Shown: one piece after another, positions 10,373-27,003 of the stretch
How the letters are laid out: each line of letters begins with the position of its first letter
Numbering within the stretch: position 1 is the first letter of the stretch
Assembly: GCA_903925275.1 (NCBI GenBank)
Contig: CAIYES010000208.1
Coordinates: forward strand, 1 to 34,506
Reading direction: 5' to 3'
DNA length: 34,506 nucleotides
DNA from: an uncultured Bacteroidales bacterium
Lineage (GTDB): Bacteria; Bacteroidota; Bacteroidia; Bacteroidales; FEN-979
The notes under the pieces: generated by a model
What the model was told of the DNA's origin: nothing
Seen by the model: only the letters and a program-made list of their open reading frames with translations
Database searches by the model: none
Position numbers and translations under genes: made by a program

Positions 10373-10861
10373 TCAGAATCTCTTTACAAAGAAAACCTTC
10401 CCGTCACCCTTCATGTAAAAATCATCGATTTTTGCCTCTTGAGAATAACCGATCCTGTCGTAAAAATGGCGGGTGGGTGCATATTTTTCGAGTGATGATG
10501 TTTCGGCAACTACAATACGACCACCCATTTCCCTGATGACCCGGTGGGTTTCTTCTATTATAAGATTACCAATACCCTGGCCACGATAGTCGTTGTGGGT
10601 AACGATCCAATAAAGGTCAAAACTGCCTTCTGTCCCGGCGATCGGACCAAAACATGTATATGAAACGGTTTTTCCGTTCAACCCGGCGAAAATAAAATGA
10701 TAGTCACTCCGGTCACCCAGTTCAATTTTGTCTTCAACAAGTTCAAGGGCAACAGGGACTTCAAAATCATAAAAAAAGCCAGTAGAGAGGATTATATCCC
10801 TGACAATTTCAACATCTTCCGGTTGAACATCCCGGCGAAAAGTAAGGTTGGTATTCATCAT
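10373..10861 (-). CDS. GNAT-family N-acetyltransferase
   Basis: This 162-residue acetyltransferase of the GNAT fold transfers an acetyl group from acetyl-CoA to an amine. The acetyl-CoA loop is visible as DYRGQGIG (motif A, about residues 92-99), followed by the helix NLIIEETHRVIREMGG and the C-terminal motif ATRHFYDRIGY-like segment (APTRHFYDRIGYSQEA). It starts 5 bases after the stop of the second ATP-grasp gene and is the last gene of the kamA cluster, so its substrate may be the product of that cluster. It is much shorter than beta-lysine acetyltransferase AblB (about 270 residues), so it is not assigned as AblB. Two adjacent ATG codons (10861 and 10858) are both possible starts. Confidence 0.88.
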   Translation of the reverse strand: MMNTNLTFRRDVQPEDVEIVRDIILSTGFFYDFEVPVALELVEDKIELGDRSDYHFIFAGLNGKTVSYTCFGPIAGTEGSFDLYWIVTHNDYRGQGIGNLIIEETHRVIREMGGRIVVAETSSLEKYAPTRHFYDRIGYSQEAKIDDFYMKGDGKVFFVKRF

Positions 10862-10866
10862 GGTTG

Positions 10867-11844
10867 CTATTTTCTTAATGCATCAGCAAGGATGCGTGTA
10901 ATGACTTCCTGGAAATTGAGCCCCCTCTTTTTTGAAGCAGCCATGAACCCGCCCGATTCAGACAGGCAGGGATTCAGATTGATATCGATAACCAAAGGCT
11001 CTGATTCATTTGTAACCCTGAAATCGATCCGGACATGTCCTTTCAGTCCCAGCTCGTTCCAGCACTTCTTGCAAATCAGGATCATCTGGCGTTTAAGTGG
11101 TTCGTCAGACCTGGATAACTGAAATGTCCGACTGGTGTGCGAGTACTCAAAAGATTTATCATCCCATTTTGACTTGTATCCCATCATTTTTGGTTTCCCT
11201 TCCGGATAACCGTTGAAGGTCATTTCAGCCAGTGGTAGTACATCAGGCCCACGTTCACTGTAAAGGATGGAATTATTGAACTCCCTTCCATCGATAAATT
11301 CTTCGATAAAGTAGTGATCAGGGCTTTTCATCCCGATTTTCTGAATGAATTCGTGATCTGATCCCCAAAAAACACAATCTTCATCCAACTCCAGCGAACC
11401 TTCTTCCCATATCGGTTTGACAATGTATTTCTTGTCGCTTTTTAGTTTTTTACATTCATTCAGATTAAAACCTTCCGGAGTTTTTACACCGATTTTACTG
11501 AGTTCTTTTTTTGCAAGCAACTTGTTTGAACATTGAAACATTGGGATCAGCGGAGAACCGGTATAAGGAATCCGGACAAAATTTAACACTGAATTTGCCA
11601 GAAAAGTGAATTCTCCTTTGTTTCCGATCGTTTCAGCAAGATTGAAAATAATATCGGGATTTAACTTCCGAAGACGGCCGATTGCTGTTTTTAAATTGAG
11701 ATCAATTTGCAGGTAAAGCACTTCATAATTCAACGCTATCAATGCTTCCGTGACTAAATTGACCTGTTCTATCACATCAGCTTCATCATCTTTCGGTTTT
11801 TTGGATAGTTTATTATAAAGTATGAGAACTGTTTTTTTTATCAT
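10867..11844 (-). CDS. ATP-grasp ligase, D-Ala-D-Ala ligase-like (second of two)
   Basis: This 325-residue ATP-grasp enzyme resembles D-alanine-D-alanine ligase. Features include the N-terminal Rossmann-like region, YIVKPIWEEGS with ATP-binding K143, EEFIDGREF (181-189), HVRIDFRV with R272 and D274, and the metal-binding end VIDINLNPCL (D287, N289). The open frame extends to 11976, but that extension crosses the repeat element and lacks family character. The ATG at 11844 (MIKKTVLILYNKLS) is therefore chosen. Compared with Ddl the omega-loop region diverges, so the acceptor is probably not D-Ala. It lies in the cluster kamA, ligase, this ligase, GNAT. The expected reaction is ATP-dependent amide bond formation; the substrates are inferred from context only. 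Confidence 0.85.
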   Translation of the reverse strand: MIKKTVLILYNKLSKKPKDDEADVIEQVNLVTEALIALNYEVLYLQIDLNLKTAIGRLRKLNPDIIFNLAETIGNKGEFTFLANSVLNFVRIPYTGSPLIPMFQCSNKLLAKKELSKIGVKTPEGFNLNECKKLKSDKKYIVKPIWEEGSLELDEDCVFWGSDHEFIQKIGMKSPDHYFIEEFIDGREFNNSILYSERGPDVLPLAEMTFNGYPEGKPKMMGYKSKWDDKSFEYSHTSRTFQLSRSDEPLKRQMILICKKCWNELGLKGHVRIDFRVTNESEPLVIDINLNPCLSESGGFMAASKKRGLNFQEVITRILADALRK

Positions 11845-11863
11845 ATGAAGTAATTTTCTCCCG

Positions 11864-11960
11864 AATGAATCTCCTCGCCGCAGAGCAACGAAGTACCAAT
11901 TGAATTCTATTTTATAATCCGCTGCAAACAGAGGGGAATTAACCCAAATGACCCCACCCC
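11864..11960 (-). repeat. Dispersed repeat family R1, copy B
   Basis: Read on the minus strand it starts with GGGGTGGGGTCATTTGGGTT followed by AATTCC and ends with CTCTGCGGCGAGGAGATTCATT. Both ends match copy C at 20317-20389, and the right end matches copy A at 8893-8930. About 40 bases of unrelated sequence separate the ends. It lies between the two ATP-grasp genes and abuts a palindromic repeat at 11961-12000. Confidence 0.7.
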
Positions 11961-12000
11961 ATCCCCTCCCCTTCAAGGGGAGGGGGCAGGGGGAGAGGTC
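11961..12000 (+). repeat. G/C-rich palindromic dispersed repeat, copy 2
   Basis: CCCCTCCCCTT / AAGGGGAGGGG (11963-11985) is a near-continuous perfect palindrome. It is followed by GCAGGGGGAGAGGTC, the same tail pattern seen after the palindrome at 5009-5032. There is no T-tract, so it is not a standard terminator. Confidence 0.68.
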
Positions 12001-12008
12001 ATAAAATA

Positions 12009-12986
12009 TTAAATTTCAACCCTTTTTCTTGCCGAAAGCATGATTTCTTTGATGATTCTTTCAAAATCATATCCATGCATATAGGCAAGGATTGGTAAAT
12101 CAGAATGTATCTTATCCAATCCTGCCAAAGGATTTACTTCAATAAAATTCGGGATTCCCGAACGGTCGGCACGGATATCGACTCTTCCTCCATCCCTGCA
12201 ACCCAGAATTCGCCATGTCGCTAGAGCAAGGTCGATACATTTTTCAGAGATCTCTTTTTCCGGAATTCTATACTCCACCGATTTCAGATAATCAGATTTT
12301 GTCTGATAAGAATATATGTTGTTTGTATCCTCATGTTTATACAAAATCTCCATGATACCAACCGGATATCCTTCGGTTCCGGAACCAAGAATCCCGACTG
12401 TAAATTCTCTTCCGGGTAGAAATTCCTCGACCAGCAGGCCTGAAGGATACCGTTTCAGCAAATCCAGGCAAATTACATACAATTCTTCACGATTGTTTAC
12501 CCTTGACAAGGCATTGATCCCTTTTCCCGTTCCCTCCGCACAAGGCTTAACAAATAAAGGATAAGGCAGGTTAACCAGTGCAATGTCCTGAACATTTTCG
12601 ACGATGGCAAAATCAGGTGTGGCGATGCCGCAATCGCGTATAACCCGCTTGGTCATGCCTTTGTGTAAAGTGAGTGAAAGCACCAGCGCATCAGAGAATG
12701 TATAAGGTATCCGGAATGCATCAAGCAACGCAGGAACCTGGGCTTCGCGCCCGATGCCAAACATGCCTTCACAGATATTGAAAACCATGTCCCACCGGTC
12801 ACCTTTGGCTAACCGCTGGGTCAGATGGCGAATATGGCCAATCCGGTCGGTTTGATAGCCCAGTTGTTGCAATGTCATCTCGATCGCCTCAATGGTACTC
12901 TCACGGTCAAATTCCGCTGTTTCCTCTTCACTGTAGCCTTCCTGCTGGTAATCCGACCGTAAATCGTACGTTAATCCTATGGTCAT
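12009..12986 (-). CDS. ATP-grasp ligase, D-Ala-D-Ala ligase-like (first of two)
   Basis: This 325-residue ATP-grasp enzyme resembles D-Ala-D-Ala ligase. It shows YPLFVKPCAEGTGKGI with ATP-binding K147, VEEFLPGREFTVGIL (186-200), GGRVDIRAD with R268 and D270, and the metal-binding FIEVNPLAGL (E283, N285). These match Ddl landmarks, but the protein differs clearly from the second ligase in the cluster, so the two are not a recent duplication. Its ATG lies 3 bases after the kamA stop, so it is translationally close to kamA. The family makes peptide or amide bonds using ATP through an acyl-phosphate. Beta-lysine, made by KamA, is a plausible substrate (inference). No mur or ftsZ genes are near, which argues against a cell-wall ddl. 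Confidence 0.87.
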   Translation of the reverse strand: MTIGLTYDLRSDYQQEGYSEEETAEFDRESTIEAIEMTLQQLGYQTDRIGHIRHLTQRLAKGDRWDMVFNICEGMFGIGREAQVPALLDAFRIPYTFSDALVLSLTLHKGMTKRVIRDCGIATPDFAIVENVQDIALVNLPYPLFVKPCAEGTGKGINALSRVNNREELYVICLDLLKRYPSGLLVEEFLPGREFTVGILGSGTEGYPVGIMEILYKHEDTNNIYSYQTKSDYLKSVEYRIPEKEISEKCIDLALATWRILGCRDGGRVDIRADRSGIPNFIEVNPLAGLDKIHSDLPILAYMHGYDFERIIKEIMLSARKRVEI

Positions 12987-12989
12987 AAG

Positions 12990-14261
12990 CTATTGCGTAA
13001 AATCGGGATATCTGAAGATTTTCTCTTCGTAATTTTTAAATAAGGCATAGCCATTTTCACGTCCCATATAATACTCGGGAAGCAAAGGGATCTTGCCGCC
13101 ACCGCCGGGAGCATCCACAACATAAGTTGGAACCGCATATCCGCTGGTATGCCCGCGCAAACCTTTGATGATCTCAAGCCCTTTTTCGATAGGTGTCCGG
13201 AAGTGCCCTGAACCCAAAACGGGATCGCATTGATATAAGTAATAGGGGCGGACTCGAATTTTAAGCAAGGCATGCATCAGGTTTTTCATTATCTGAACAT
13301 CATCATTGATACCTTTCAGCAAAACCGTCTGACTTCCCAAAGGAATACCGGCGTTTGCAAGCTTTTCGCACGCTTCCTTAACTTCAAGCGTAATCTCATC
13401 TGCATGTGTAAAGTGAATACTCATGAAGAGGGGATGGTACTTTTTCAACATATTTACCAGCGGACGGGTAATTCGTTGTGGCAGTACAGCCGGAACCTTG
13501 GTACCGATACGGATGATCTCAACATGAGGAATACTCCGTAACCGCGAAAGCAGGTATTCAACATGCAGATCAGGCATGGTGAGCGGATCTCCTCCCGAAA
13601 TCAGAACATCACGAACCTCGGGATGTTGTTCAATATAATGTAATCCGGCTTCCCAGGATTTTATCCCGATGTGACATTTGTCTTTTGCCACCATGCGGGT
13701 ACGGGTACAATACCGGCAGTAGGTGGAACAAAAACCGGTTACAAGGAATAAAACCCGGTCGGGATAGCGGTGAACAATGTTTGGTACAGGACTGTATTGC
13801 TCTTCCGATAAGGGATCAGATGCTTCTCCGACATGTGTCAGAAATTCGTCGAATACCGGAACTACACTCTTACGCAAAGCCTGCTCCGGATTGTCCGGGT
13901 CCAACAGGCTTATATAATAAGGTGAAATACGCAACGGAAGCGATTGGCTTTTTGTTTCGAACGGCTTTACTTCATTGTCGGAAAGCCGGATGTACTGTGC
14001 CAACTGCTCGATAGAACGGGCGCTGTTTTTGATCTGCCAATGCCAGTTATTCCAGTCTTTGATCGTTGCTCCGGGGAAATAGCTTTGCATAAATGCAAGC
14101 GAACGATCACTGGTTGCGGTTTTATCACGATCGATACGTGATTTTAAATATTCGTCTAAAAGTGATACTTCGTCTATGAAGGTGGACTGACTTGGAGGTT
14201 CTTCTTCTTCTGATAATTCGGGATGGGGGATGACCAGTTTTTCTGTTGGATTTTTTTCCAT
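12990..14261 (-). CDS. kamA: Lysine 2,3-aminomutase (KamA-family radical SAM enzyme)
   Basis: This 423-residue radical SAM, PLP-dependent aminomutase converts L-lysine to beta-lysine. The radical SAM cluster motif is C178-x3-C182-x2-C185 (GFCSTYCRYC) and the SAM-binding SGGDPL follows at 222-227. The PLP lysine is K390 in DAPGGGGK. D346 (QCD) and D383 (VVD), 37 residues apart, occupy the positions of the two aspartates that bind the lysine epsilon-amino group in the Clostridium subterminale enzyme. In glutamate 2,3-aminomutase these positions are Lys and Asn. This supports lysine as substrate. The first 30 residues are a low-complexity acidic lead. It is first in a cluster with two ATP-grasp ligases and a GNAT protein, with none of the lysine-fermentation genes. 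Confidence 0.9.
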   Translation of the reverse strand: MEKNPTEKLVIPHPELSEEEEPPSQSTFIDEVSLLDEYLKSRIDRDKTATSDRSLAFMQSYFPGATIKDWNNWHWQIKNSARSIEQLAQYIRLSDNEVKPFETKSQSLPLRISPYYISLLDPDNPEQALRKSVVPVFDEFLTHVGEASDPLSEEQYSPVPNIVHRYPDRVLFLVTGFCSTYCRYCTRTRMVAKDKCHIGIKSWEAGLHYIEQHPEVRDVLISGGDPLTMPDLHVEYLLSRLRSIPHVEIIRIGTKVPAVLPQRITRPLVNMLKKYHPLFMSIHFTHADEITLEVKEACEKLANAGIPLGSQTVLLKGINDDVQIMKNLMHALLKIRVRPYYLYQCDPVLGSGHFRTPIEKGLEIIKGLRGHTSGYAVPTYVVDAPGGGGKIPLLPEYYMGRENGYALFKNYEEKIFRYPDFTQ

Positions 14262-18047: not shown

Positions 18048-18142
18048 CACAAGGAATTCCTGCCCCTTATTTTTAGGAAAATATGATTGTTTTTACAACG
18101 GTCATTCTATCTTATACGTATAAATTAAAATCATTAAGTCAC

Positions 18143-20284
18143 ATGAGAAAAATCACTTTACTTTTTACAGTATTGATTCTTTTAACCGGTTTAAGCACTT
18201 CTGCAAAACTGGTGGAAATTAAAGATGCCAGGCTGGCAGCAAAGAATTTTTATTTCGAACGGTTGACAAAGAATCTACACAGGTCAGTTGTTTACAGTGA
18301 AGTTTCAATCGACAATGAATTTGTTGAGAAAGCAGGGAATCTGCCCGTTTACTATGTTTTCAACTTTACCGATAAGGGTTATATCATCGTTTCAGCCGAT
18401 GATTGTTGTATCCCGGTAATCGGTTATTCCTTTGATTCACAATATAATCCGGACAATCAGCCGGAAGGATTCGCCTTCTGGATGGGTTGCAGAAAACAGG
18501 AAATCGTCGGAAATATTCAAAACAATGTTTTACCCGATTTTACGATCTCAAATGAATGGCAAAGGCTATACAATTTAAATTTATCATCATTGACCGATGA
18601 CCCAGCAACTGTTACAGACGTGGCACCTCTTCTGACAAGTACATGGGACCAGGGTTTTCCATATAATTTCCTTTGTCCTGCTGATGCAGCGTGCGGTACC
18701 TATGGTGGTCATGTTACTGTGGGGTGTGTGGCAACTGCCATGGCTCAGATCATGTATTACTGGAGGTGGCCCAATACCGGAACAGGCCAGCACTGCTATA
18801 CGCCGGCGGGCTACGCTCAACAATGTGCCAACTTTGGGAATACAACCTATGACTGGAACGGAATGACCGATTCTCCAGGCAAGGAATGCAATCCGGTGGC
18901 ACTCATTTCCTATCATGCAGGGATTAGTTTGAATATGATGTACAATCTGGATGGAACTTGCGCCTCCGGTGCATACCAAAATGACGTGCCTGCAGCCTTA
19001 CAGAACTATTTTCAATATGCCTCATCATGCACGGCAGTCAGTAAATCGAGCTATACAACAACCAATTGGAACAATCTGCTCATCGGAGATATAAATACCG
19101 GTAAACCGGTTCAATATGGTGGTCAGGGTCCTAATGGCGGGCATTCATGGGTTTGCGATGGTTACCAGGGAACCGACTATTTTCATATGAACTGGGGCTG
19201 GAGTGGCTCTTCAAACGGATATTTTTATCTGAATAACCTCAATCCAGGCGGGTACACATTCAACAGTCAACAGGGAGCAGTTCTCCATATTGAGCCTAAG
19301 ACCTCACTTTATCCCTCCTATTGCAATGGCAATACGCTTGTTGATGCGTACGATTTCGGCTCCATCGAAGATGGTAGCGGCCCTGTAGCCGGGTACCAGA
19401 ACAATAGCAACTGTAGTTGGCTCATTGCTCCCGACGACAGCGTGAACACCATTACCCTCACCTTTACGCGTTTTGTTACCCTCGCCGGTGATATAGTGAA
19501 CGTTTATGACGGTGCCGACGCCACAGCCCCGCTCATCGGAACCTATAGCGGTACCCCAGGAACAATGCCTGCTGTAACCTCGACAGGTCCGCAAATGTTT
19601 ATTACATTTACAACAGATGGCTCGGGAACAGCAAATGGATGGTTGGCCAACTACACCACCAATACCGTTAAATTCTGTGAATCAGTAACCACGTTGCTTG
19701 AAGGGTGGGGCAATATCACCGATGGCAGCAATCGTTTCCAGTATCGCAACCAATCCAACTGCAGATGGAACATCACCCCTGGAGGCGCTTCAAAAATTGT
19801 TCTGACGGTGAACAGTTTTAATACGGAACAGAATAATGATAAATTGTTGATCTATGATATGGGAGCCGGTACGCTGATGACGACCTTATCGGGCGTTTAC
19901 AGCACTCCTCCGGGACCATTCACCTCAACTACCGGAAAAATGATGCTAGTATGGTTCACCAACAATACTGTGCGTGGTACTGGCTGGGATGTAAGTTATT
20001 CCCCGATGGTTGGCACCGATGAACAGACTTCATTCAACGACCTTTCAATTTATCCCAATCCGGCCAGCCAGCTCTTAAATATCAGCTTTACCATCAACGA
20101 CCCGCAAAGTATTGAGATAGAAATCCTTTCGCTAAATGGGAAGGTGCTTTATTCAGATAACCTGACCCATTTCAAAGGCGCTTTTCTGAAATCCCTGGAT
20201 GTTTCAGCTTTCGCGAAAGGCATCTATATGCTCCGTTTGAAATCTGACCAGGAAACAACAGTTAAAAAGCTTGTGGTTCAATAA
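18143..20284 (+). CDS. Secreted C10 (streptopain-like) cysteine protease with two CUB domains and T9SS sorting domain
   Basis: This 713-residue exported protease has, in order: a signal peptide (1-20); a Spi/propeptide-like region (about 22-140); a C10 peptidase domain (about 150-390) with nucleophile C195 in VTVGCVATAMAQ and H334 in GGHSWVCDGY followed by FHMNWGW; two CUB-like beta domains (about 393-508 and 510-617), each with paired cysteines; and a type A T9SS C-terminal signal (about 632-713) starting DLSIYPNPA and ending KKLVVQ. The last domain sends it across the outer membrane by the type IX system. A start at 18083 is possible, but the ATG at 18143 places the signal peptide at the N-terminus. 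C10 enzymes are broad-range proteases; a role in nutrient peptide capture is inferred. Confidence 0.9.
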   Translation: MRKITLLFTVLILLTGLSTSAKLVEIKDARLAAKNFYFERLTKNLHRSVVYSEVSIDNEFVEKAGNLPVYYVFNFTDKGYIIVSADDCCIPVIGYSFDSQYNPDNQPEGFAFWMGCRKQEIVGNIQNNVLPDFTISNEWQRLYNLNLSSLTDDPATVTDVAPLLTSTWDQGFPYNFLCPADAACGTYGGHVTVGCVATAMAQIMYYWRWPNTGTGQHCYTPAGYAQQCANFGNTTYDWNGMTDSPGKECNPVALISYHAGISLNMMYNLDGTCASGAYQNDVPAALQNYFQYASSCTAVSKSSYTTTNWNNLLIGDINTGKPVQYGGQGPNGGHSWVCDGYQGTDYFHMNWGWSGSSNGYFYLNNLNPGGYTFNSQQGAVLHIEPKTSLYPSYCNGNTLVDAYDFGSIEDGSGPVAGYQNNSNCSWLIAPDDSVNTITLTFTRFVTLAGDIVNVYDGADATAPLIGTYSGTPGTMPAVTSTGPQMFITFTTDGSGTANGWLANYTTNTVKFCESVTTLLEGWGNITDGSNRFQYRNQSNCRWNITPGGASKIVLTVNSFNTEQNNDKLLIYDMGAGTLMTTLSGVYSTPPGPFTSTTGKMMLVWFTNNTVRGTGWDVSYSPMVGTDEQTSFNDLSIYPNPASQLLNISFTINDPQSIEIEILSLNGKVLYSDNLTHFKGAFLKSLDVSAFAKGIYMLRLKSDQETTVKKLVVQ

Positions 20285-20478: not shown

Positions 20479-20682
20479 CTATTCCTTTTTTCCGGTATTT
20501 ATGCCAAAAGGCAGGTACAACGGGCAAAAGCTGATTAAACTTGTAAGTATGAAAATTCCGGCAAAGATCAAAAGGATAATCGCCAAAACGCCTGATATTA
20601 CGTTGGCAAAATATAGTGAAATAACAACAACAGCAACCAAAGCTCTGATCACCTTATCAATTAATCCCATGTTCTTTTTCAT
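20479..20682 (-). CDS. DUF2892-type small inner-membrane protein
   Basis: This 67-residue protein has two hydrophobic helices (about residues 11-28 and 31-52) in the DUF2892 pattern: MGLIDKVIRALVAVVVISLYF at the start, then GLLAIILLIFAGIFILTSLISFCPLYLPFGI-like sequence ending in the CPLY motif. The same module forms the membrane part of the rhodanese YgaP. An upstream start at 20724 adds 14 residues without family match, so the ATG at 20682 is chosen. It lies 78 bases after the cysteine-desulfurase-family gene on the same strand and is the last gene of the sulfur-relay locus. A thiol or sulfide-handling role is suggested by context only. Confidence 0.82.
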   Translation of the reverse strand: MKKNMGLIDKVIRALVAVVVISLYFANVISGVLAIILLIFAGIFILTSLISFCPLYLPFGINTGKKE

Positions 20683-20760
20683 TGTTGAATAATTTAAGGT
20701 TAATAAATGATAAACTGCCGGCAAAGATAAACTAAAAAGTGATACTAAAGCGATTTATTT

Positions 20761-21921
20761 TTAATGTCTTATTGATGCGATCTCCCCGATAGCTTCGATG
20801 GCTGCATCAATGTCTGCTTCGGTATTAAACGGGCCCATACTCAGGCGAACGGTACCATGGATTTTATCGGTTCCGATCACTTCGTGCACCATCGGGGCGC
20901 ATTGCAGTCCGGTACGACAGGCGATATTGTAATCAACATCAAGAATGGTTCCGACATCTCCCGATTCAAACCCTTTGATGTTGAGGCTCAACACCGGGTT
21001 CTGGTTTTCAATGCTTTCCGCACAGTAGGTCGTCACGTTTTCGATGCGCTGAACACCTTTGCGCAGTTTGTCCCATAACTGGATCTCCCGGTGATGAAGG
21101 TTTTCGATACCTTGTTCCAGTACCCATTTTAGGCCTGCATGCAATCCTGCAACTCCCACAAGGTTCAGTGTGCCACATTCCATCCGGTAAGGGTATTCTT
21201 CGAGGTGGTTTTTTTGAGCGGAGCGCACACCGGTTCCGCCAAATCGTGTGCCGCGTACCGGTACGCCTTCCCTGATATACGAACCACCTATCCCTGTTGG
21301 TCCCATCAGGCATTTATGTCCTGTAAAAACCAGGACGTCAATCTCCATGGCCTTCATGTCGATGGGAATAGCGCCGGCGCTCTGGCTGCTGTCGACAATA
21401 AATAACACACCCGCCTCTTTGCAGATCTTCCCGATGGCAGCCAGCGGCTGAACAGTTCCGATCACATTGGAGCTATGGTTGACTACCACCATCCGGGTGT
21501 TCTTGCGAAATGCTTTTTTGAAATCATCCGGATCCACATAACCATGGCTGTCGAATGGGATGTGAGTTACTTCGACATTATTGCTGATGCTCAGGTGATA
21601 CAGCGGACGCAACACGGAGTTGTGTTCCAGCTTTGTGGTGATTACATGATCGCCGGAATTGGCAAGTCCCTGCAAAACCATATTTAACGAATCACTGGCA
21701 TTGTAGCTGAAGGTAAGGCGGTTTGGATCATCCCCGTTAAACAGATTTGTCAGCATTTTACGGGTTTCATGAACAACTTCCTCGGTCGCTATTGCGGCAT
21801 CGAAACCCGAGCGTCCGGGACTGACTCCGTGTTCTCGGTAAAAATGGTACATAAAATCATACACCGCTTCCGGTTTTGGGAATGTTGTTGCGGAATTGTC
21901 GAGGTAAATCTGGTTGCTCAT
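20761..21921 (-). CDS. Cysteine-desulfurase-family PLP enzyme (class V aminotransferase)
   Basis: This 386-residue PLP enzyme is related to SufS/CsdA desulfurases and closest in style to the shorter Firmicutes-type 'cysteine desulfurase family' proteins. It starts IYLDNSATTFPKP. The PLP lysine is K203 in FTGHKCLMGPTG, and the candidate persulfide Cys is C341 in RTGLQCAP, the same place as in SufS (RTGHHCAQ). It would remove sulfur from L-cysteine, giving alanine and an enzyme persulfide. It starts 34 bases after the iron-sulfur protein gene in the same direction, inside the DsrC/DsrMK-like locus. No sufBCD or iscU is adjacent, so sulfur delivery to DsrE2/DsrC is more likely than Fe-S assembly (inference). 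Confidence 0.88.
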   Translation of the reverse strand: MSNQIYLDNSATTFPKPEAVYDFMYHFYREHGVSPGRSGFDAAIATEEVVHETRKMLTNLFNGDDPNRLTFSYNASDSLNMVLQGLANSGDHVITTKLEHNSVLRPLYHLSISNNVEVTHIPFDSHGYVDPDDFKKAFRKNTRMVVVNHSSNVIGTVQPLAAIGKICKEAGVLFIVDSSQSAGAIPIDMKAMEIDVLVFTGHKCLMGPTGIGGSYIREGVPVRGTRFGGTGVRSAQKNHLEEYPYRMECGTLNLVGVAGLHAGLKWVLEQGIENLHHREIQLWDKLRKGVQRIENVTTYCAESIENQNPVLSLNIKGFESGDVGTILDVDYNIACRTGLQCAPMVHEVIGTDKIHGTVRLSMGPFNTEADIDAAIEAIGEIASIRH

Positions 21922-21955
21922 AAGTTTTATCTAAGCTATGTTGATAATCCGTTGA

Positions 21956-23257
21956 TTACTTCTGGTCAAGGATCAGGGCATCGGCAACAATTTCGGCCAA
22001 GGTTTTTATCTGTACCCCGAGTTTGAATTGAATATTGATCTGGGTAAGCTGATCCACACAGTTATGGCAGGGGGCTAAAACAATTTTTGCCCCTGTTTTT
22101 CTGATCTGATCTGCTTTGATCTCTGCGATCTTCATCCTGCGCTCATTGTATTCGCTCATGGCCAATTGTCCCCCGCCCCCGCCACAACAGTAGTTGTCGG
22201 TTCCATGAGGAGTCATTTCAACAAAACCGTGAATGAACTGATGCAATATATACCGTTGTTCATGGATGATACCTCCGTTACGCACCAGGTTGCACGGGTC
22301 ATGGAGGGTGACCACATCTTTAATTTTATCCGGATCCAGGCGAATCTTCCCTTCCCGTATGTATTTTGCGATACATTCCACGGAAGTAATTACTTCGAAA
22401 GGGAAGTGTTTCTGCAGGTAATTGGGAGCCTCCCATCTGAATGCCCTTGACCCGTGTCCACATTCAGCCAGAACCAACGTTTGTGACTTCAGCGCCTCGG
22501 TTTCATTCCACAGCCTGCCGGCTATGAGGCTTGCCTCGCTGGAATTGCCCGAAAAATAAGCATAGTTGGTCACGTCATACATCTTTGTCGACAGTGTCCA
22601 GCTCTCCCCGGCAGCAAAAAAAATCTTGGCCATGGCGGCGATGGAAAGAGGATAGAACTTCGGTTCCCTGGGATTCAGGGTGTACAGCACCCTTTTTCCG
22701 GGTTCATCTATCGGAATCAATGCTTTCGGATCATTGACTTCGTCGATCAACTCCTCCTCCATCCATTTCAGGGTATCAACAAACTCATCGGCAGGGATGC
22801 TCATGTTGTTGCCCGATACGACGGCTGCGTTAACTGTTGATTGAAGGGTAGCCGGAACCATTCCCATTTCCGACAACATGGTTCGGCCGGTTTTGACCAG
22901 GTAGGCGATGTCGACGCCAACCGAACAGTGCATGGTACAACGGCCACACATTGTGCAGGCACCAAACAGCAGGTCGACCATTTCGCGGGTGGTTTGCTCA
23001 TCCAGATCGCGGGCATTTACCAGCGATGGGAAAATTTTCCCCGTGAGGGTATAATAACGCCGGTAAATGGAGGAAACAATATCAACCTTCCGTGCAGGTG
23101 TCAGCCGTTCGTCTTTCGTAACCAGGTAGTAAATACAACTCTCAGCACAGAGTCCGCAATGCACACAACTGTTCAGGTGCGTGATCAGCTTGCTGTCGAT
23201 TGGATCCTGAAAAACTCCCAGCCCTTTATTAATCGTATCTTCGTTCAATGCTCCCAT
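21956..23257 (-). CDS. DsrK/TmcB/HdrD-like iron-sulfur oxidoreductase subunit
   Basis: This 433-residue soluble protein has two ferredoxin-type [4Fe-4S] motifs (C31-x2-C34-x2-C37-x3-C41 and C101-x2-C104-x2-C107-x3-C111). Its catalytic half is of the heterodisulfide reductase type: C266 in AECGHGSR, C322 in DPCN, C357-C358 in YCCGGGGG, and C397-x2-C400 in PCHNC. The pattern C-x34-CC-x38-C-x2-C is that of the special [4Fe-4S] cluster site of HdrB/HdrD/DsrK. DsrK faces the cytosol and exchanges electrons with the disulfide or trisulfide of DsrC. The gene starts 12 bases after the membrane subunit gene and is three genes from a two-cysteine DsrC, which fits a DsrMK-like complex. LUD/glycolate oxidase GlpC-type proteins are the main alternative. 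Confidence 0.88.
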   Translation of the reverse strand: MGALNEDTINKGLGVFQDPIDSKLITHLNSCVHCGLCAESCIYYLVTKDERLTPARKVDIVSSIYRRYYTLTGKIFPSLVNARDLDEQTTREMVDLLFGACTMCGRCTMHCSVGVDIAYLVKTGRTMLSEMGMVPATLQSTVNAAVVSGNNMSIPADEFVDTLKWMEEELIDEVNDPKALIPIDEPGKRVLYTLNPREPKFYPLSIAAMAKIFFAAGESWTLSTKMYDVTNYAYFSGNSSEASLIAGRLWNETEALKSQTLVLAECGHGSRAFRWEAPNYLQKHFPFEVITSVECIAKYIREGKIRLDPDKIKDVVTLHDPCNLVRNGGIIHEQRYILHQFIHGFVEMTPHGTDNYCCGGGGGQLAMSEYNERRMKIAEIKADQIRKTGAKIVLAPCHNCVDQLTQINIQFKLGVQIKTLAEIVADALILDQK

Positions 23258-23269
23258 CAGATCGTTCGG

Positions 23270-23890
23270 TTACAAGGATTTTGGCGGCCACACTCCGCGC
23301 CGACCGTAAAACAAGCCCAGATGATACCGAGCCGCGAAAAAATAGATGGCATGTTTCAGTTTCCCGACCGGGAAATATAGCAGTAGCAAACTTGCTATGA
23401 TAAAATACCCTGGTATCGTTGCAGGAATATAAAGAACCAATGCTGTTATTAATTGGAAAAAAGTAACCAGCACATTGGAAATATAATCGTCGGGACTAGA
23501 AAGACTGCGGAGTTCCTTTTTAGTCATGCGTTTGATCAGGATTGCGATGCCACATCCTCCAGTTATTACAAAGAATCCGGATAACAAGGCGGCAAATACT
23601 CCTGTGAAGGTAACATGAGCCAGGAAAAAAAAGAACAGGAATATCGACATGAATGTTCCCAGGTGATAGAGGATACCGGCAGTATAGGTTGGGAGATGGA
23701 GAAAGGCCGATTCTTTTTTCGACGGGCTCATGGCGCCGGTGAAAGAATATTGTATGGCTGGCAGGGTCTTGCCGGCCGATGGAGCCCAATCCAAGGGTTT
23801 TCCAAGCCGGATCAGCCGGAGCATATGATAAAATGAAACGACCAGACAGAAGCACAGCGAAGCCAGCGCGGCATAGTGATACCAGTTCAT
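23270..23890 (-). CDS. NarI/DsrM/TmcC-like membrane cytochrome b subunit
   Basis: This 206-residue inner-membrane protein has about five hydrophobic helices (about 5-27, 72-92, 94-119, 138-158, 160-176). Histidines able to ligate heme b are H65, H76, H92, H180 and H190. Family-style motifs are SPDDYISN (132-139) before the fourth helix and a basic C-terminus ARYHLGLFYGRRGVWPP (187-203). NarI, DsrM and TmcC proteins carry electrons between menaquinone and a cytosolic Fe-S partner. The partner here is the DsrK-like protein encoded 12 bases downstream. It starts 14 bases after the DsrC stop. Heme content and direction of electron flow are inferred; automated pipelines may call this 'nitrate reductase gamma', but no narGH is present. 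Confidence 0.83.
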   Translation of the reverse strand: MNWYHYAALASLCFCLVVSFYHMLRLIRLGKPLDWAPSAGKTLPAIQYSFTGAMSPSKKESAFLHLPTYTAGILYHLGTFMSIFLFFFFLAHVTFTGVFAALLSGFFVITGGCGIAILIKRMTKKELRSLSSPDDYISNVLVTFFQLITALVLYIPATIPGYFIIASLLLLYFPVGKLKHAIYFFAARYHLGLFYGRRGVWPPKSL

Positions 23891-23904
23891 ATCAATCTGT
23901 CAGT

Positions 23905-24222
23905 TTAAACACAACCATCGGGTTTCGGAAGTCCTGCTACACGACAGGCGCCACGCGCGGGACCAAGAGGGAACAATTCGTAAATTTCACGCAGTTTGAC
24001 CCCTGTCGACTGGCATATCACGCGGATCATGGGAGCCATCCCTTTTTCTTCCCAGTTCGCGCGGATTATTCTAACGATAGCCCAGTGTTTTTCGCTCATC
24101 TCAGCTATTCCGTCATGCCTTGCAATGGCTGCTGCCAGTTCTTCATTCCAGATGGCAGGGTTTGATAAAAAACCGTCTCCGTCAACTTCCAGGATTCTGC
24201 CTTCAATTTCCAATGTTGCCAT
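23905..24222 (-). CDS. DsrC family sulfur carrier (both redox cysteines present)
   Basis: This 105-residue protein belongs to the DsrC/TusE/DsvC family. It has the family core (VDGDGFLSNPAIWNEELA, LREIYELFPLGPARG) and the flexible C-terminal arm GACRVAGLPKPDGCV. C93 and C104 are separated by exactly 10 residues, the arrangement of DsrC (CysB and CysA) that forms the intramolecular disulfide or holds a trisulfide sulfur. TusE has only the terminal one. It is therefore a true DsrC-type carrier and the likely substrate of the DsrMK-like pair encoded next. The ATG at 24222 lies 3 bases after the stop of the small Cys protein. A third cysteine, C70, is also present. Confidence 0.93.
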   Translation of the reverse strand: MATLEIEGRILEVDGDGFLSNPAIWNEELAAAIARHDGIAEMSEKHWAIVRIIRANWEEKGMAPMIRVICQSTGVKLREIYELFPLGPARGACRVAGLPKPDGCV

Positions 24223-24225
24223 AAA

Positions 24226-24483
24226 TTATTTTGTCGAATTGATTGGTAAAGATATTTCATTATCAAACCTGTCCATTATTTCATCAACGGAAAGAGGTAT
24301 GTCGGGTAAAACGAAGTCGGGGCAAAAATGAAGGATGCTGTGGGTTTGGAACCGTTTACAGTTTTTCCAGTTTTCCGGAATGTTGATGCAGAAGTCACTG
24401 ATGTATGTGTCACGCAGGGTTTCGGGTTTAACAAACCCAGAAACGTGGATAAGCTGGCAGGTGGAGTAGTTTGGACAATGCAT
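24226..24483 (-). CDS. Unrecognised five-cysteine small protein in the sulfur-relay locus
   Basis: This 85-residue protein has no signal peptide or membrane helix. Five cysteines are spaced C3-x5-C9-x22-C32-x9-C42-x11-C54, with motifs MHCPNYSTC, YISDFC, WKNCKRFQ and HFCPDF. The last 25 residues are acidic and free of Cys. I do not recognise the family. The pattern resembles small metal- or Fe-S-binding proteins, or a thiol relay partner. The gene stop lies 3 bases before the dsrC ATG and the upstream neighbour is the larger class V aminotransferase, so it is inside the operon and on the coding strand, and is probably real. Confidence 0.72.
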   Translation of the reverse strand: MHCPNYSTCQLIHVSGFVKPETLRDTYISDFCINIPENWKNCKRFQTHSILHFCPDFVLPDIPLSVDEIMDRFDNEISLPINSTK

Positions 24484-24568
24484 CCAGGTTTTTTTCTGAT
24501 GTGCTGACTGCGAAAATAGAAAAAAAAAACGATATCCGGGAGGGTCTATAAAATATATCGCAGGCTTA

Positions 24569-26032
24569 TTATATCATGAACCATGATTTAACCCGGGATT
24601 CTTCGGTGAGCAGGGATTTGTGCATGAATTCGTTGGTGTGTTTATTATAAGAATAGTCACCTCCCCATTCCTTGTGGTTCCGCTGAATCTGTCGCAGGGC
24701 ATCTGCTGTGAAGATAACTTCTTCGCCGGTCATGGTTGGATGCAGTGAGACCCTTACCCAACCTGGTTTTTCCGATAAATCTCCCTGGTTGATCTTGTCT
24801 GTTATTTTTTTTGATTTTTCGTAACTCACATCGAGTAAAAAATGGCCATATGTTCCGGCACAGGCACATCCGCCTCTGACCTGGATCCCGAAGCGGTCGC
24901 TGAGCAGACTTACGATGAGGTTATAATGGATATCCCGGATGTAAAAAGAGATCACACCCAGGCGGTTTTCAATCGAATCAGCAAGCAGATTTAAGTCGGG
25001 TATTTTTCTGAACTCCCTGAAGGCGAGGCTGACGAGCTCTTTCTCCTGTTCATGAATCATGTTCACCCCCATCTTCGTCTTCAGCTCAATGGCGAGGGCT
25101 GTGCGCATGGCTTGCAGGAAGCCTGGGGTTCCACCGTCTTCCCGGATTTCGATATCATCAATATACTTGTGCTCTCCCCATGGATTGGTCCAGTCAACGG
25201 TACCACCGCCCGGCTGATCAGGCACCTTCATGTTGTATAAGTTCGAATCGAAGATCAGCACCCCGGATGAACCCGGCCCACCGAGAAATTTGTGGGGCGA
25301 AAAGAAAACCGCATCTAATTTCTCCATGGGGTCAGCCGGGTGCATGTTCATTTCATCATAAGGTGCTGAAGCGGCAAAGTCAATGAAGGCAAGACCGCCG
25401 TGCTCGTGCATGAGGCGGGCCATGGCATGGTAAGGTGTGCGGATACCTGTAACATTGGAACAGGCGGTGAATGCCCCGATCTTAAGTCTCCTGTTCGCGT
25501 ATTTCTTGAGGGCATCCTCCAGATGGTTGAGATCGACCAAACAATCCTTCTCCGGTTCCACCACCACAACGTCGGCGATGGTTTCATACCATGTAGTCTG
25601 GTTAGAATGGTGTTCCATATGGGTAACAAACACCACCGGTTTTTCCGATTCACCACTGAAGCGATGGGGGGATTCATCACGGCATGTTTTTAGTCCCAGG
25701 ATGCGCTGGAATTTAACGACAGCCCCGGTCATTCCAAATCCGGTAGTGATGATCACATCATCCTTGCCTGCATTCACATGGGCCTTGATTTTTTGGTGGG
25801 CCAGATGATAGGCCTGGGTCATCAGCTTTCCTACTTCGCTTGTTTCGGTATGTGTATTGCCGACGAACGGTCCGATGGTTTCGAGCATGATCTTTTCGAT
25901 GGGCATATAAAGCCTTCCGCTCGCGATCCAATCGGCGTAGATCATCCGCTGCTTCCCATACGGCGAATGGAAATCCAGATTTTGTCCGATTATTTGTTTC
26001 CGGAATTGCTCGAAGTACTTTTCTGTGGTCAT
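24569..26032 (-). CDS. Class V aminotransferase, desulfurase-like, large type
   Basis: This 487-residue PLP enzyme has the class V aminotransferase/cysteine desulfurase fold. PLP-binding landmarks are THMEHHSN (137-144), FIDFAASAPYDE (217-228) and the Schiff-base lysine K248 in FFSPHKFLGGPG. The C-terminal part has RGGCACAGTYGH with C389 and C391, where desulfurases carry their persulfide cysteine. It is about 80-100 residues longer than SufS. Activity could be cysteine desulfuration or C-S cleavage of another thiol amino acid; this is not settled. It is flanked by the DsrE2-like gene upstream and the Cys-rich small protein downstream, all on one strand. A TACTTTTG element at 26088-26081 may give it its own promoter. 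Confidence 0.85.
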   Translation of the reverse strand: MTTEKYFEQFRKQIIGQNLDFHSPYGKQRMIYADWIASGRLYMPIEKIMLETIGPFVGNTHTETSEVGKLMTQAYHLAHQKIKAHVNAGKDDVIITTGFGMTGAVVKFQRILGLKTCRDESPHRFSGESEKPVVFVTHMEHHSNQTTWYETIADVVVVEPEKDCLVDLNHLEDALKKYANRRLKIGAFTACSNVTGIRTPYHAMARLMHEHGGLAFIDFAASAPYDEMNMHPADPMEKLDAVFFSPHKFLGGPGSSGVLIFDSNLYNMKVPDQPGGGTVDWTNPWGEHKYIDDIEIREDGGTPGFLQAMRTALAIELKTKMGVNMIHEQEKELVSLAFREFRKIPDLNLLADSIENRLGVISFYIRDIHYNLIVSLLSDRFGIQVRGGCACAGTYGHFLLDVSYEKSKKITDKINQGDLSEKPGWVRVSLHPTMTGEEVIFTADALRQIQRNHKEWGGDYSYNKHTNEFMHKSLLTEESRVKSWFMI

Positions 26033-26080
26033 AAAACGATATTTCCTGTTATTGCCAAAAACCAGGATATGTTAACGAGG

Positions 26081-26088
26081 CAAAAGTA
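26081..26088 (-). promoter_or_regulatory. Possible internal -7 promoter element in the sulfur locus
   Basis: Minus-strand TACTTTTG matches TAnnTTTG and lies 49 bases before the ATG of the large class V aminotransferase. No -33 TTG is visible at the usual spacing. An internal promoter here is possible but weakly supported. Confidence 0.35.
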
Positions 26089-26110
26089 ATGAATATGCAT
26101 CTGATTCTAT

Positions 26111-26611
26111 TCAGGTGAAGATGATTTGTGTTTGCAGCCCTCCGCACTTTTCGTAAAACTGACCAACCGTAAGCACCTCTTTTACACCTTCCCAAAGATC
26201 TTCCCGCTTTAATTTGAACATATCCATCCCCAGTTTGCAGGCAAAAACCTCACCGCCCCCTGCATCAATCATTTCTAAAAATTCTTTCACCGGAGGGATG
26301 TCTGCTTTATTTATCTGGTTGCGCATCATTGCTGAAACACCCGCTTCCACACCCGGAATCACACCGAGTAGTGTTGGAAAGGGCAACCCACCCGGCATAC
26401 GCATTGACGGATTTCCAGTTACCCCGGTGTGGAGACTGTTCATGGTTTTCGTTGTAATGGCATCTAAACCGAAAAAGGTAAAAAACAATTTTGTTTCAAT
26501 GCCTTCCATTACGGCGCCATTGCCCATTATCAATGCTGCATATACATCTTCAAGTGTCCCTTTGGCACAAATGATGCATACTTTTTTCAAAGGGAATTCT
26601 TCGTTTGCCAC
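26111..26611 (-). CDS. DsrE2-like sulfurtransferase (DsrE/DsrF/DrsH family)
   Basis: This 166-residue protein has the DsrE2-type pattern. The start KKVCIICAKGTLEDVYAAL is followed by NGAVMEGIETKLFFTFFGLDA, and the conserved cysteine C125 lies in VFACKLGMDMF, matching the ACxxSMD region of DsrE2. C12, C15 and C156 are additional. DsrE family proteins bind persulfide sulfur and pass it to TusA or DsrC. DsrE2 is usually membrane-anchored by two helices; here the middle part (about 60-95) is only mildly hydrophobic, so this is probably the soluble form. The neighbours are a one-Cys DsrC homologue 80 bases upstream and a desulfurase-like enzyme downstream, which supports a sulfur-relay role. Confidence 0.88.
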   Translation of the reverse strand: MANEEFPLKKVCIICAKGTLEDVYAALIMGNGAVMEGIETKLFFTFFGLDAITTKTMNSLHTGVTGNPSMRMPGGLPFPTLLGVIPGVEAGVSAMMRNQINKADIPPVKEFLEMIDAGGGEVFACKLGMDMFKLKREDLWEGVKEVLTVGQFYEKCGGLQTQIIFT

Positions 26612-26691
26612 AGTTGAAAAATTTGAATGTGAAAACGTATAACCGAGCGCCGGTTGTCATCTTTGTTGTCTTTGAACAAGAATCAGCCGCA

Positions 26692-27003
26692 TTATATACA
26701 CGAAGCAGGTTTAGGGATACCGGCAATTTTGGCGGCCTTCTTCATGGGGGCACCGGGGAACAAACCATAGAAGCCTTTGATGTCAACGAGCCCGGAATTT
26801 CCAACCGAGCGGATTGTTAGGGCTTCGCCTTTTGCAAATCGTTCACGCAGAAAAACAAGAATAGCAACATGTTTTTCTGTCAGATGGATTCCTTCCTCTT
26901 TGGCAATTTCCACCGCCATCTCTTTGTTCCATTGTGCAGGATTTGTGAAATAACCCTCTTCATTGACATCAACAGTTACACCCGAGATAGTTTTCTTTGC
27001 CAT
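26692..27003 (-). CDS. DsrC/TusE homologue with a single C-terminal cysteine
   Basis: This 103-residue protein has the DsrC/TusE fold pattern: VNEEGYFTNPAQWNKEMA, LTEKHVAILVFLRERF, FYGLFPGAPMKKAAKIAGIPKPASCI. Only the penultimate cysteine C102 (CysA) is present. The CysB position, 11 residues earlier, is Ala91. TusE has the same single-cysteine state, so this copy can carry a persulfide but cannot form the DsrC disulfide. It is the first gene of the sulfur-relay run on the minus strand and is distinct from the two-cysteine DsrC at 23905-24222. It may hand sulfur to a different acceptor. No tusA or tusBCD is visible, so the E. coli tRNA thiolation role is not assumed. Confidence 0.88.
   Translation of the reverse strand: MAKKTISGVTVDVNEEGYFTNPAQWNKEMAVEIAKEEGIHLTEKHVAILVFLRERFAKGEALTIRSVGNSGLVDIKGFYGLFPGAPMKKAAKIAGIPKPASCI

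Follow-up and report, generated by a model that had tools for sequence, protein, structure and literature searches.

A DsrC, desulfurase-family and DsrMK-like gene cassette in Bacteroidales genomes without a dsrA match

Several described systems resemble the genes reported here: the DsrMK(JOP), HmcEF/TmcCB, HdrDE and EtfD electron-transfer complexes, and the Tus sulfur relay of E. coli. According to the accessible parts of two sources, minimal DsrMK without JOP is known and DsrMK or DsrM without DsrAB has already been reported in some assemblies (PMC10504309), and the second cysteine of DsrC is described as confined, a few cases aside, to organisms that have DsrAB, two-cysteine DsrC without DsrAB being recorded from Methylococcaceae, Marinobacter and Lawsonia (PMC3397948). 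We analyzed a 34,506-nucleotide stretch of DNA (the window; contig CAIYES010000208.1 of assembly GCA_903925275.1) from an uncultured Bacteroidales bacterium, which carries nine genes at 20479..27003 on the minus strand, among them genes for two DsrC proteins, an Fe-S protein (K), a membrane subunit (M) and a cysteine-desulfurase-family enzyme (CsdF). Four of them, DsrC2-M-K-CsdF, form a conserved cassette that belongs with the DsrC and HdrD/DsrK-type electron-transfer systems as an undescribed variant, and that hints at a connection, not yet described, through which cysteine sulfur would be coupled to the quinone pool of respiration.

A conserved core within the nine-gene locus

We compared the locus across 100 related genomes (including the window genome, G000), of which 23, in five families, bear K; across 80 of 229 confirmed K-bearing loci from metagenome-assembled genomes (MAGs), found with search patterns derived from K itself; and across an even draw of 345 genomes from the phylum. 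The first two sets overlap, 19 of the 80 MAGs being the same genomes as relatives in the 100-genome sample. All nine open reading frames (ORFs) are real, co-directional genes, as first described, but they are not one conserved unit: what is conserved is DsrC2-M-K-CsdF, often with the small protein Cys5 in front. This core recurs with its gene order kept in many MAG loci, which argues that the arrangement is more than chance. Within 4.5 kb of K at the 80 MAG loci, M was labeled at 73, CsdF at 68, DsrC2 at 64 by ORF label (73 by its C-terminal motif), Cys5 at 33 and AT5 at 17. M was undetected at seven loci: K starts the locus in four, and the others are L116, L125 and L134, the last of which has only K. 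The genes of the window locus, in order of transcription, are:

26692..27003, minus strand: DsrC1, one-cysteine DsrC/TusE-like protein with Ala at the CysB position, outside the core (TIGR03342, 73.4 bits; cut-off 53.5)
26111..26611, minus strand: DsrE2-like sulfur carrier, GTG start, outside the core (Pfam DrsE_2, 92.3; cut-off 25; SulfCarrDsrE2, 93 of 210 bits)
24569..26032, minus strand: AT5, SufS-like class V pyridoxal phosphate (PLP) enzyme of 487 amino acids (Aminotran_5, 141.9 bits)
24226..24483, minus strand: Cys5, orphan 85-amino-acid protein with five invariant cysteines, which precedes DsrC2 in many genomes
23905..24222, minus strand: DsrC2, two-cysteine DsrC (Cys93, Cys104), core (TIGR03342, 99.5 bits; cut-off 53.5)
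23270..23890, minus strand: M, NarI-like membrane subunit, core (weak HmcE match only, 28 of 275 bits)
21956..23257, minus strand: K, HmcF/TmcB/DsrK/HdrD-like Fe-S protein, core (Pfam CCG and 4Fe-4S domains)
20761..21921, minus strand: CsdF, cysteine-desulfurase-family enzyme, core (Pfam Aminotran_5; TIGR01977, 435.8 bits; cut-off 377)
20479..20724, minus strand: DUF2892 (YgaP-like transmembrane) neighbor, outside the conserved set (PF11127, 72.3 bits)

The intergenic gaps, in the same order, are 80, 78, 85, 3, 14, 12, 34 and 36 bases. Pfam models above cut-off at the locus are DsrC (twice), DrsE_2, Aminotran_5 (twice), CCG with 4Fe-4S, and YgaP-like_TM (DUF2892).

The remaining genes follow distributions of their own. 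DsrC1 and DsrE2 are adjacent in 28 of 29 loci from relatives, 25 of the 29 being from K-negative genomes; at the exception (L193) the DsrC1 match stops 60 bases short of the contig end. AT5 is matched at E below 1e-170 in 72 of the 100 relatives, 51 of them without K (counted by eye), and at L072 and L105 it lies downstream of CsdF. Among the 100 relatives, six with K and eight without it have a DsrC1-type DsrC and AT5 on the same contig, no more than about 5 kb apart, again counted by eye. DUF2892 was matched at two of 22 loci from relatives, at neither of them directly after CsdF. The proposal that all nine genes form one system is rejected: DsrC1-DsrE2 and AT5 are common in genomes that lack K, and DUF2892 has no conserved place next to CsdF. 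Loading of DsrC2 by DsrE2, also proposed in the preliminary description, is unsupported because DsrE2 travels with DsrC1; yet in relatives a second DsrE2 and TusA lie behind CsdF.

The distinction drawn earlier between a one-cysteine and a two-cysteine DsrC holds: DsrC2, above the TIGR03342 cut-off, has Cys93 and Cys104, and DsrC1 has the penultimate cysteine only. PDB relatives of DsrC2 include DsrC from sulfite reductase complexes, as found with a profile (A3) that also holds one-cysteine rows, and in a 36-row tree DsrC2 groups with DsrC from two dsrA loci of phylum-sample group f75, apart from the one-cysteine rows, with support of 98. CsdF, which passes its family model, has a PLP-type Lys203 and a catalytic-type Cys341 in 67 of 67 rows.

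Distribution of the cassette and searches for dsrA

K, two-cysteine DsrC and CsdF are found in the same 23 of the 100 relatives and in none of the other 77; this and the other co-occurrence counts ignore kinship among genomes. K orthologues were called at E below 1e-170 (next best match, 1e-23), DsrC2-type proteins at more than 110 bits (next best, 102) and CsdF orthologues at 66% identity or above; CsdF matches of 39–42% in the K-negative genomes G069 and G075 were set aside as paralogues. The DsrC of all 23 K-bearing relatives has two cysteines. Of the K-negative relatives, 24 have a DsrC, and every one of these carries Ala, Ser or Thr in place of CysB. Here the second cysteine thus follows K instead of DsrAB, and the fact that two-cysteine DsrC tracks K and is replaced where K is absent supports the view that it exists for a CCG-type electron-transfer partner. 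In G043, K lies on one contig (C86), DsrC2 and M on a second (C58) and CsdF on a third (C100), so the tie between the parts is more than operon structure. In the MAG set, 78 of the 80 K-bearing genomes have a two-cysteine DsrC (73 at the locus, five elsewhere in the genome) and 79 have CsdF: near K in 68, cut at contig ends in two, and found in nine of the other ten genomes. At L102 the CsdF orthologue apparently lies right beside K, masked by the choice of ORF.

Such a distribution bears on one alternative, in which the genes serve a biosynthetic relay (for a thio-cofactor, tRNA or Fe-S clusters) and M-K merely keeps DsrC2 reduced. A cysteine desulfurase with DsrC/TusE-family sulfur carriers does resemble the E. 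coli Tus relay, as does the DsrC1-DsrE2 pair. Tus, however, ends in tRNA thiolation and, in the accessible part of its description (PMC3397948), appears without a membrane redox pair; DsrC2, moreover, has a second cysteine. The more Tus-like pair in these genomes, one-cysteine DsrC1 with DsrE2, is separate and present without the cassette, and patchy occurrence in 23 of 100 relatives is not what we would expect of a housekeeping relay. We regard this alternative as quite improbable.

The four core genes also come and go together. At five cassette-bearing loci (L033, L034, L035, L045 and L046) the order is AT5, DsrC2, M, K, CsdF, DsrE2b, TusA, MvhD, HdrA-GltD, HdrA and a QmoC-like gene, and at four cassette-free loci (L224–L227), picked for having AT5 and a QmoC-like gene on one contig, the order is identical minus exactly DsrC2, M, K and CsdF. 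The same operon with and without these genes indicates that they behave as one cassette; insertion and loss are indistinguishable from these loci. At two more cassette-bearing loci, L039 and L044, no Qmo-like set is seen in the stretch read. None of the genomes of these nine loci has aprA over cut-off, so their Qmo-like set may serve something other than adenosine 5'-phosphosulfate (APS). The DsrE2b-TusA-MvhD-HdrA/GltD fusion-HdrA-QmoC-like operon was itself seen in Bacteroidales with or without the cassette (for example at L056:11628-18872).

Since the neighbors of the cassette in many relatives are MvhD, two HdrA-like proteins and one QmoC-like protein, DsrC2 might carry electrons between M-K and soluble complexes of the HdrA/MvhD type, with CsdF only supplying or repairing sulfur. 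Against this, the window genome keeps its cassette, behind AT5 and Cys5, with no full-length QmoC-like match (best E, 4.6e-10), and CsdF is missing from only one of the 80 K-bearing MAGs and from none of the 23 relatives. We consider a shuttle of this kind improbable.

DsrC and DsrMK-like genes are the usual markers of dissimilatory sulfite or sulfate reduction, which here would require dsrAB elsewhere in the genome. Searches with a dsrA model (E threshold 0.001) gave no match in any of the 100 relatives, the whole window genome included, or in 50 further K-bearing genomes drawn from the 61 non-relative MAGs (those of L123–L130 and L132–L134 being left out). The claim that the locus lacks a sulfite reductase is thereby supported for the window genome and extended to 72 other K-bearing genomes, 73 in all. 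As controls, the model found matches in E. coli and other control genomes and in two (G123 and G240) of three f75 genomes with true DsrK. The f75 genomes of the phylum sample, which we take to be Chlorobia, served as the true DsrK set. The third control (G135, locus L142) has a true DsrK at 724 bits and gave no dsrA match, so either the search can miss dsrA or this assembly lacks it. The only aprA match in the whole window genome is far below cut-off (20 of 641.75 bits). Five of the 100 Bacteroidales-order relatives have aprA over cut-off (G021, G028, G049, G056 and G094), none of them with a dsrA match; G021 and G028 also carry the cassette. A dsrAB elsewhere in the genome is rejected on these searches, with the reservation that control G135 gave no match, and ordinary dissimilatory reduction is contradicted to the point of being extremely unlikely.

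M and K among described electron-transfer complexes

In K, the cysteine patterns are those of two 4Fe-4S sites and of a CCG site, with a single Pfam CCG stretch; its 14 cysteines are conserved in 82 rows apart from one gap at Cys31. Like DsrMK(JOP), known from sulfate or sulfite reducers and from sulfur oxidizers, the cassette combines a CCG Fe-S subunit and a NarI-like membrane subunit beside a two-cysteine DsrC, and 13 of the 14 cysteines are common to seven aligned true DsrK. It differs in that its genomes yield no dsrA match, a desulfurase-family gene is tied in, and the CCG-site residue Cys400, a cysteine in 82 of 82 K, is an aspartate in seven of seven true DsrK. Against the DsrK equivalog model (NF045796) K scores 234.1 bits and does not reach the cut-off of 400, which 55 of the 345 phylum genomes pass, 54 with scores of 694–730 and one, a split gene, with 517.

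The best model scores of K and M are with HmcF/TmcB/DsrK and HmcE/TmcC, respectively, with much lower scores for lactate, glycolate and GlpC models. A GlpC, glycolate or lactate dehydrogenase partner, the placement named at the outset as fatal to a link with DsrC, is ruled out by these scores. The likeness to HmcEF/TmcCB, which belong to sulfate reducers, has its own limit, as the curated cut-offs are far from reached (HmcF 312 of 750 and TmcB 300 of 735 bits for K; HmcE 28 of 275 bits for M), and by eye no multiheme cytochrome or other Hmc/Tmc subunit was seen among the flanking ORFs. The pair is therefore DsrMK-like in its family resemblance, as first described, but the name DsrMK is too narrow, because K scores 312 bits with HmcF, 300 with TmcB and 234 with DsrK, far below each cut-off. 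In a tree of 42 K rows, the seven true DsrK and a Methylovirgula hydrogenase partner, the K rows stay together and the intervening branches are saturated; no named HmcF, TmcB or HdrD is among the rows, so the position of K in its superfamily rests on the model scores.

At E 1e-5, K has a single PDB sequence match, to the CCG half of EtfD; M, predicted as a NarI-like helix bundle, is matched to NarI and to the membrane half of the same protein. In M, His76 and His180 are invariant and are candidate heme ligands; of 73 rows, His22 is conserved in 66, His65 in 66 and His190 in 57. The M-K pair thus resembles a split HdrDE/EtfD quinone module. It differs from EtfD, a single chain, in that M and K are separate genes 12 bases apart, and from HdrDE and EtfD in that K has just one Pfam CCG stretch and that its partner is apparently DsrC rather than electron-transfer flavoprotein (ETF) or the coenzyme M–coenzyme B heterodisulfide (CoM-S-S-CoB). 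Compared with the DsrAB-less two-cysteine DsrC of Methylococcaceae, Marinobacter and Lawsonia, the proteins here occur in many Bacteroidota and some Ignavibacteria MAGs, and their dedicated partner would account for the second cysteine.

Proposed function and surroundings of the cassette

What the sequences show are the encoded parts, with residues of ligand and catalytic type, the close co-occurrence of these parts and the missing dsrA match; they point to quinone-linked thiol/disulfide (or trisulfide) cycling of DsrC as the likely function. That the cassette is a dedicated desulfurase-DsrC-quinone redox circuit, running in either direction, we consider probable. Our tentative choice of direction is reductive, the core being a putative membrane thiol-redox module without a sulfite reductase that would convert cysteine sulfur to H2S with electrons from menaquinol. 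CsdF would take sulfur from L-cysteine (or possibly a related substrate) and leave a persulfide on Cys104 of DsrC2; Cys93 would attack the persulfide, releasing H2S and closing a Cys93-Cys104 disulfide; and K would reduce this disulfide at its CCG cluster. Electrons would pass from menaquinol to heme b of M, through the two 4Fe-4S clusters of K, and on to CCG. The net reaction would be cysteine + menaquinol → alanine + H2S + menaquinone, an electron sink for anaerobic Bacteroidales. The reductive direction is favored because the genes present suffice to close the cycle; for an oxidized DsrC trisulfide there would be no DsrAB to consume it. The loading step has a precedent in the accessible part of PMC3397948, where Allochromatium vinosum DsrC is persulfurated in vitro by E. 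coli IscS with cysteine, or by sulfide, and is not when the penultimate cysteine is replaced. The fuller proposal, respiration-like reduction of cysteine (persulfide) to H2S in anaerobic Bacteroidota, in which desulfurase-charged DsrC and a menaquinol-linked HdrDE/EtfD-type pair make up a module, for energy or redox purposes, that depends on no sulfite reductase, is possible though doubtful.

Several observations weigh against a reductive, cysteine-fed cycle. Reduction of a protein disulfide by menaquinol may be energetically uphill. The family of CsdF is broad and its substrates vary, and in many close relatives CsdF is followed by TusA, the second DsrE2 and the Qmo-like set, which leaves room for a sulfur source other than cysteine in those genomes. 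Among the 80 K-bearing MAGs, G474 has a Ser-type DsrC only, G447 shows no DsrC and G466 shows no CsdF, perhaps through incompleteness of the assemblies. All 80 records are titled as MAGs, with no isolate among them, and K-type matches are sparse phylum-wide, with only G000 and G279 among the 345 genomes. EtfD, the solved relative of both halves, runs the opposite way, from ETF to menaquinone, according to the accessible part of PMC13083937.

The EtfD direction favors an oxidative alternative, in which K would oxidize either the DsrC2 dithiol or sulfane sulfur supplied by CsdF, TusA or DsrE2, with electrons passing via M to menaquinone, in parallel with proposals for DsrMK in sulfur oxidizers and for EtfD. 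Transfer from a dithiol to menaquinone is expected to be downhill, and the position of the cassette beside TusA, DsrE2 and the Qmo-like set in many relatives also fits. The scarcity of aprA, in the window genome and in the relatives alike, speaks against it, and with no dsrA match there is no known user of a DsrC trisulfide. We judge oxidation unlikely, though the most serious of the alternatives.

If the reductive reading is true, cysteine gives rise to H2S by a hidden route through the cassette. The cassette also opens a way to study the chemistry of DsrC, K and M apart from a sulfite reductase, and dsrC or dsrMK-like matches in MAG surveys need not mean sulfate reduction. A literature search, with most subscription papers outside its reach, returned no description of the cassette, nor is it described in the accessible parts of PMC10920352, PMC13293266, PMC8674449, PMC10266427, PMC12740246 and PMC11406059.

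Of the genes in front of the core, AT5 has a PLP-type Lys248 and a CxC pair (Cys389, Cys391) at the catalytic loop, the lysine and both cysteines being kept in 18 of 18 rows, and a cysteine desulfurase is its best solved relative (108 bits). Neither Pfam nor NCBIfam gives a match for Cys5; its five cysteines are invariant in 33 aligned members, its structure model is confident, and the sole chain offered for it by Foldseek did not match. It may perhaps have an Fe-S or sulfur-transfer role.

The window genome is 5.65 Mb in 574 contigs, 95% complete with 3.6% contamination, and its only two DsrC matches are those of the window locus. The locus is framed by genes that we take, from their sequence, to be queA, tatA, a secreted peptidase and tatC. 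Matches to queA, tatA and tatC flank the locus in close relatives as well (L036, L037 and L039), which makes a foreign contig unlikely. One MAG record titled Alphaproteobacteria (L059, SACF01000007.1) has the same gene order as a Bacteroidales record (L058), and its title is probably wrong. A plasmid search gave one distant match only, in a hydrogenase operon, and a phage search with DsrC2 gave six records, all below 60% identity.

Between tatC and the sulfur genes lies a secreted protein (18083-20284, plus strand), presumably peptidase C10-like with CUB-like repeats and a sorting-domain-like C-terminus. Further away, at 10373-14261 on the minus strand, is a row of what we take to be a lysine 2,3-aminomutase-like gene, two ATP-grasp (D-Ala-D-Ala ligase-like) genes and a GNAT-like gene, which looks like a small amino-acid or peptide pathway.

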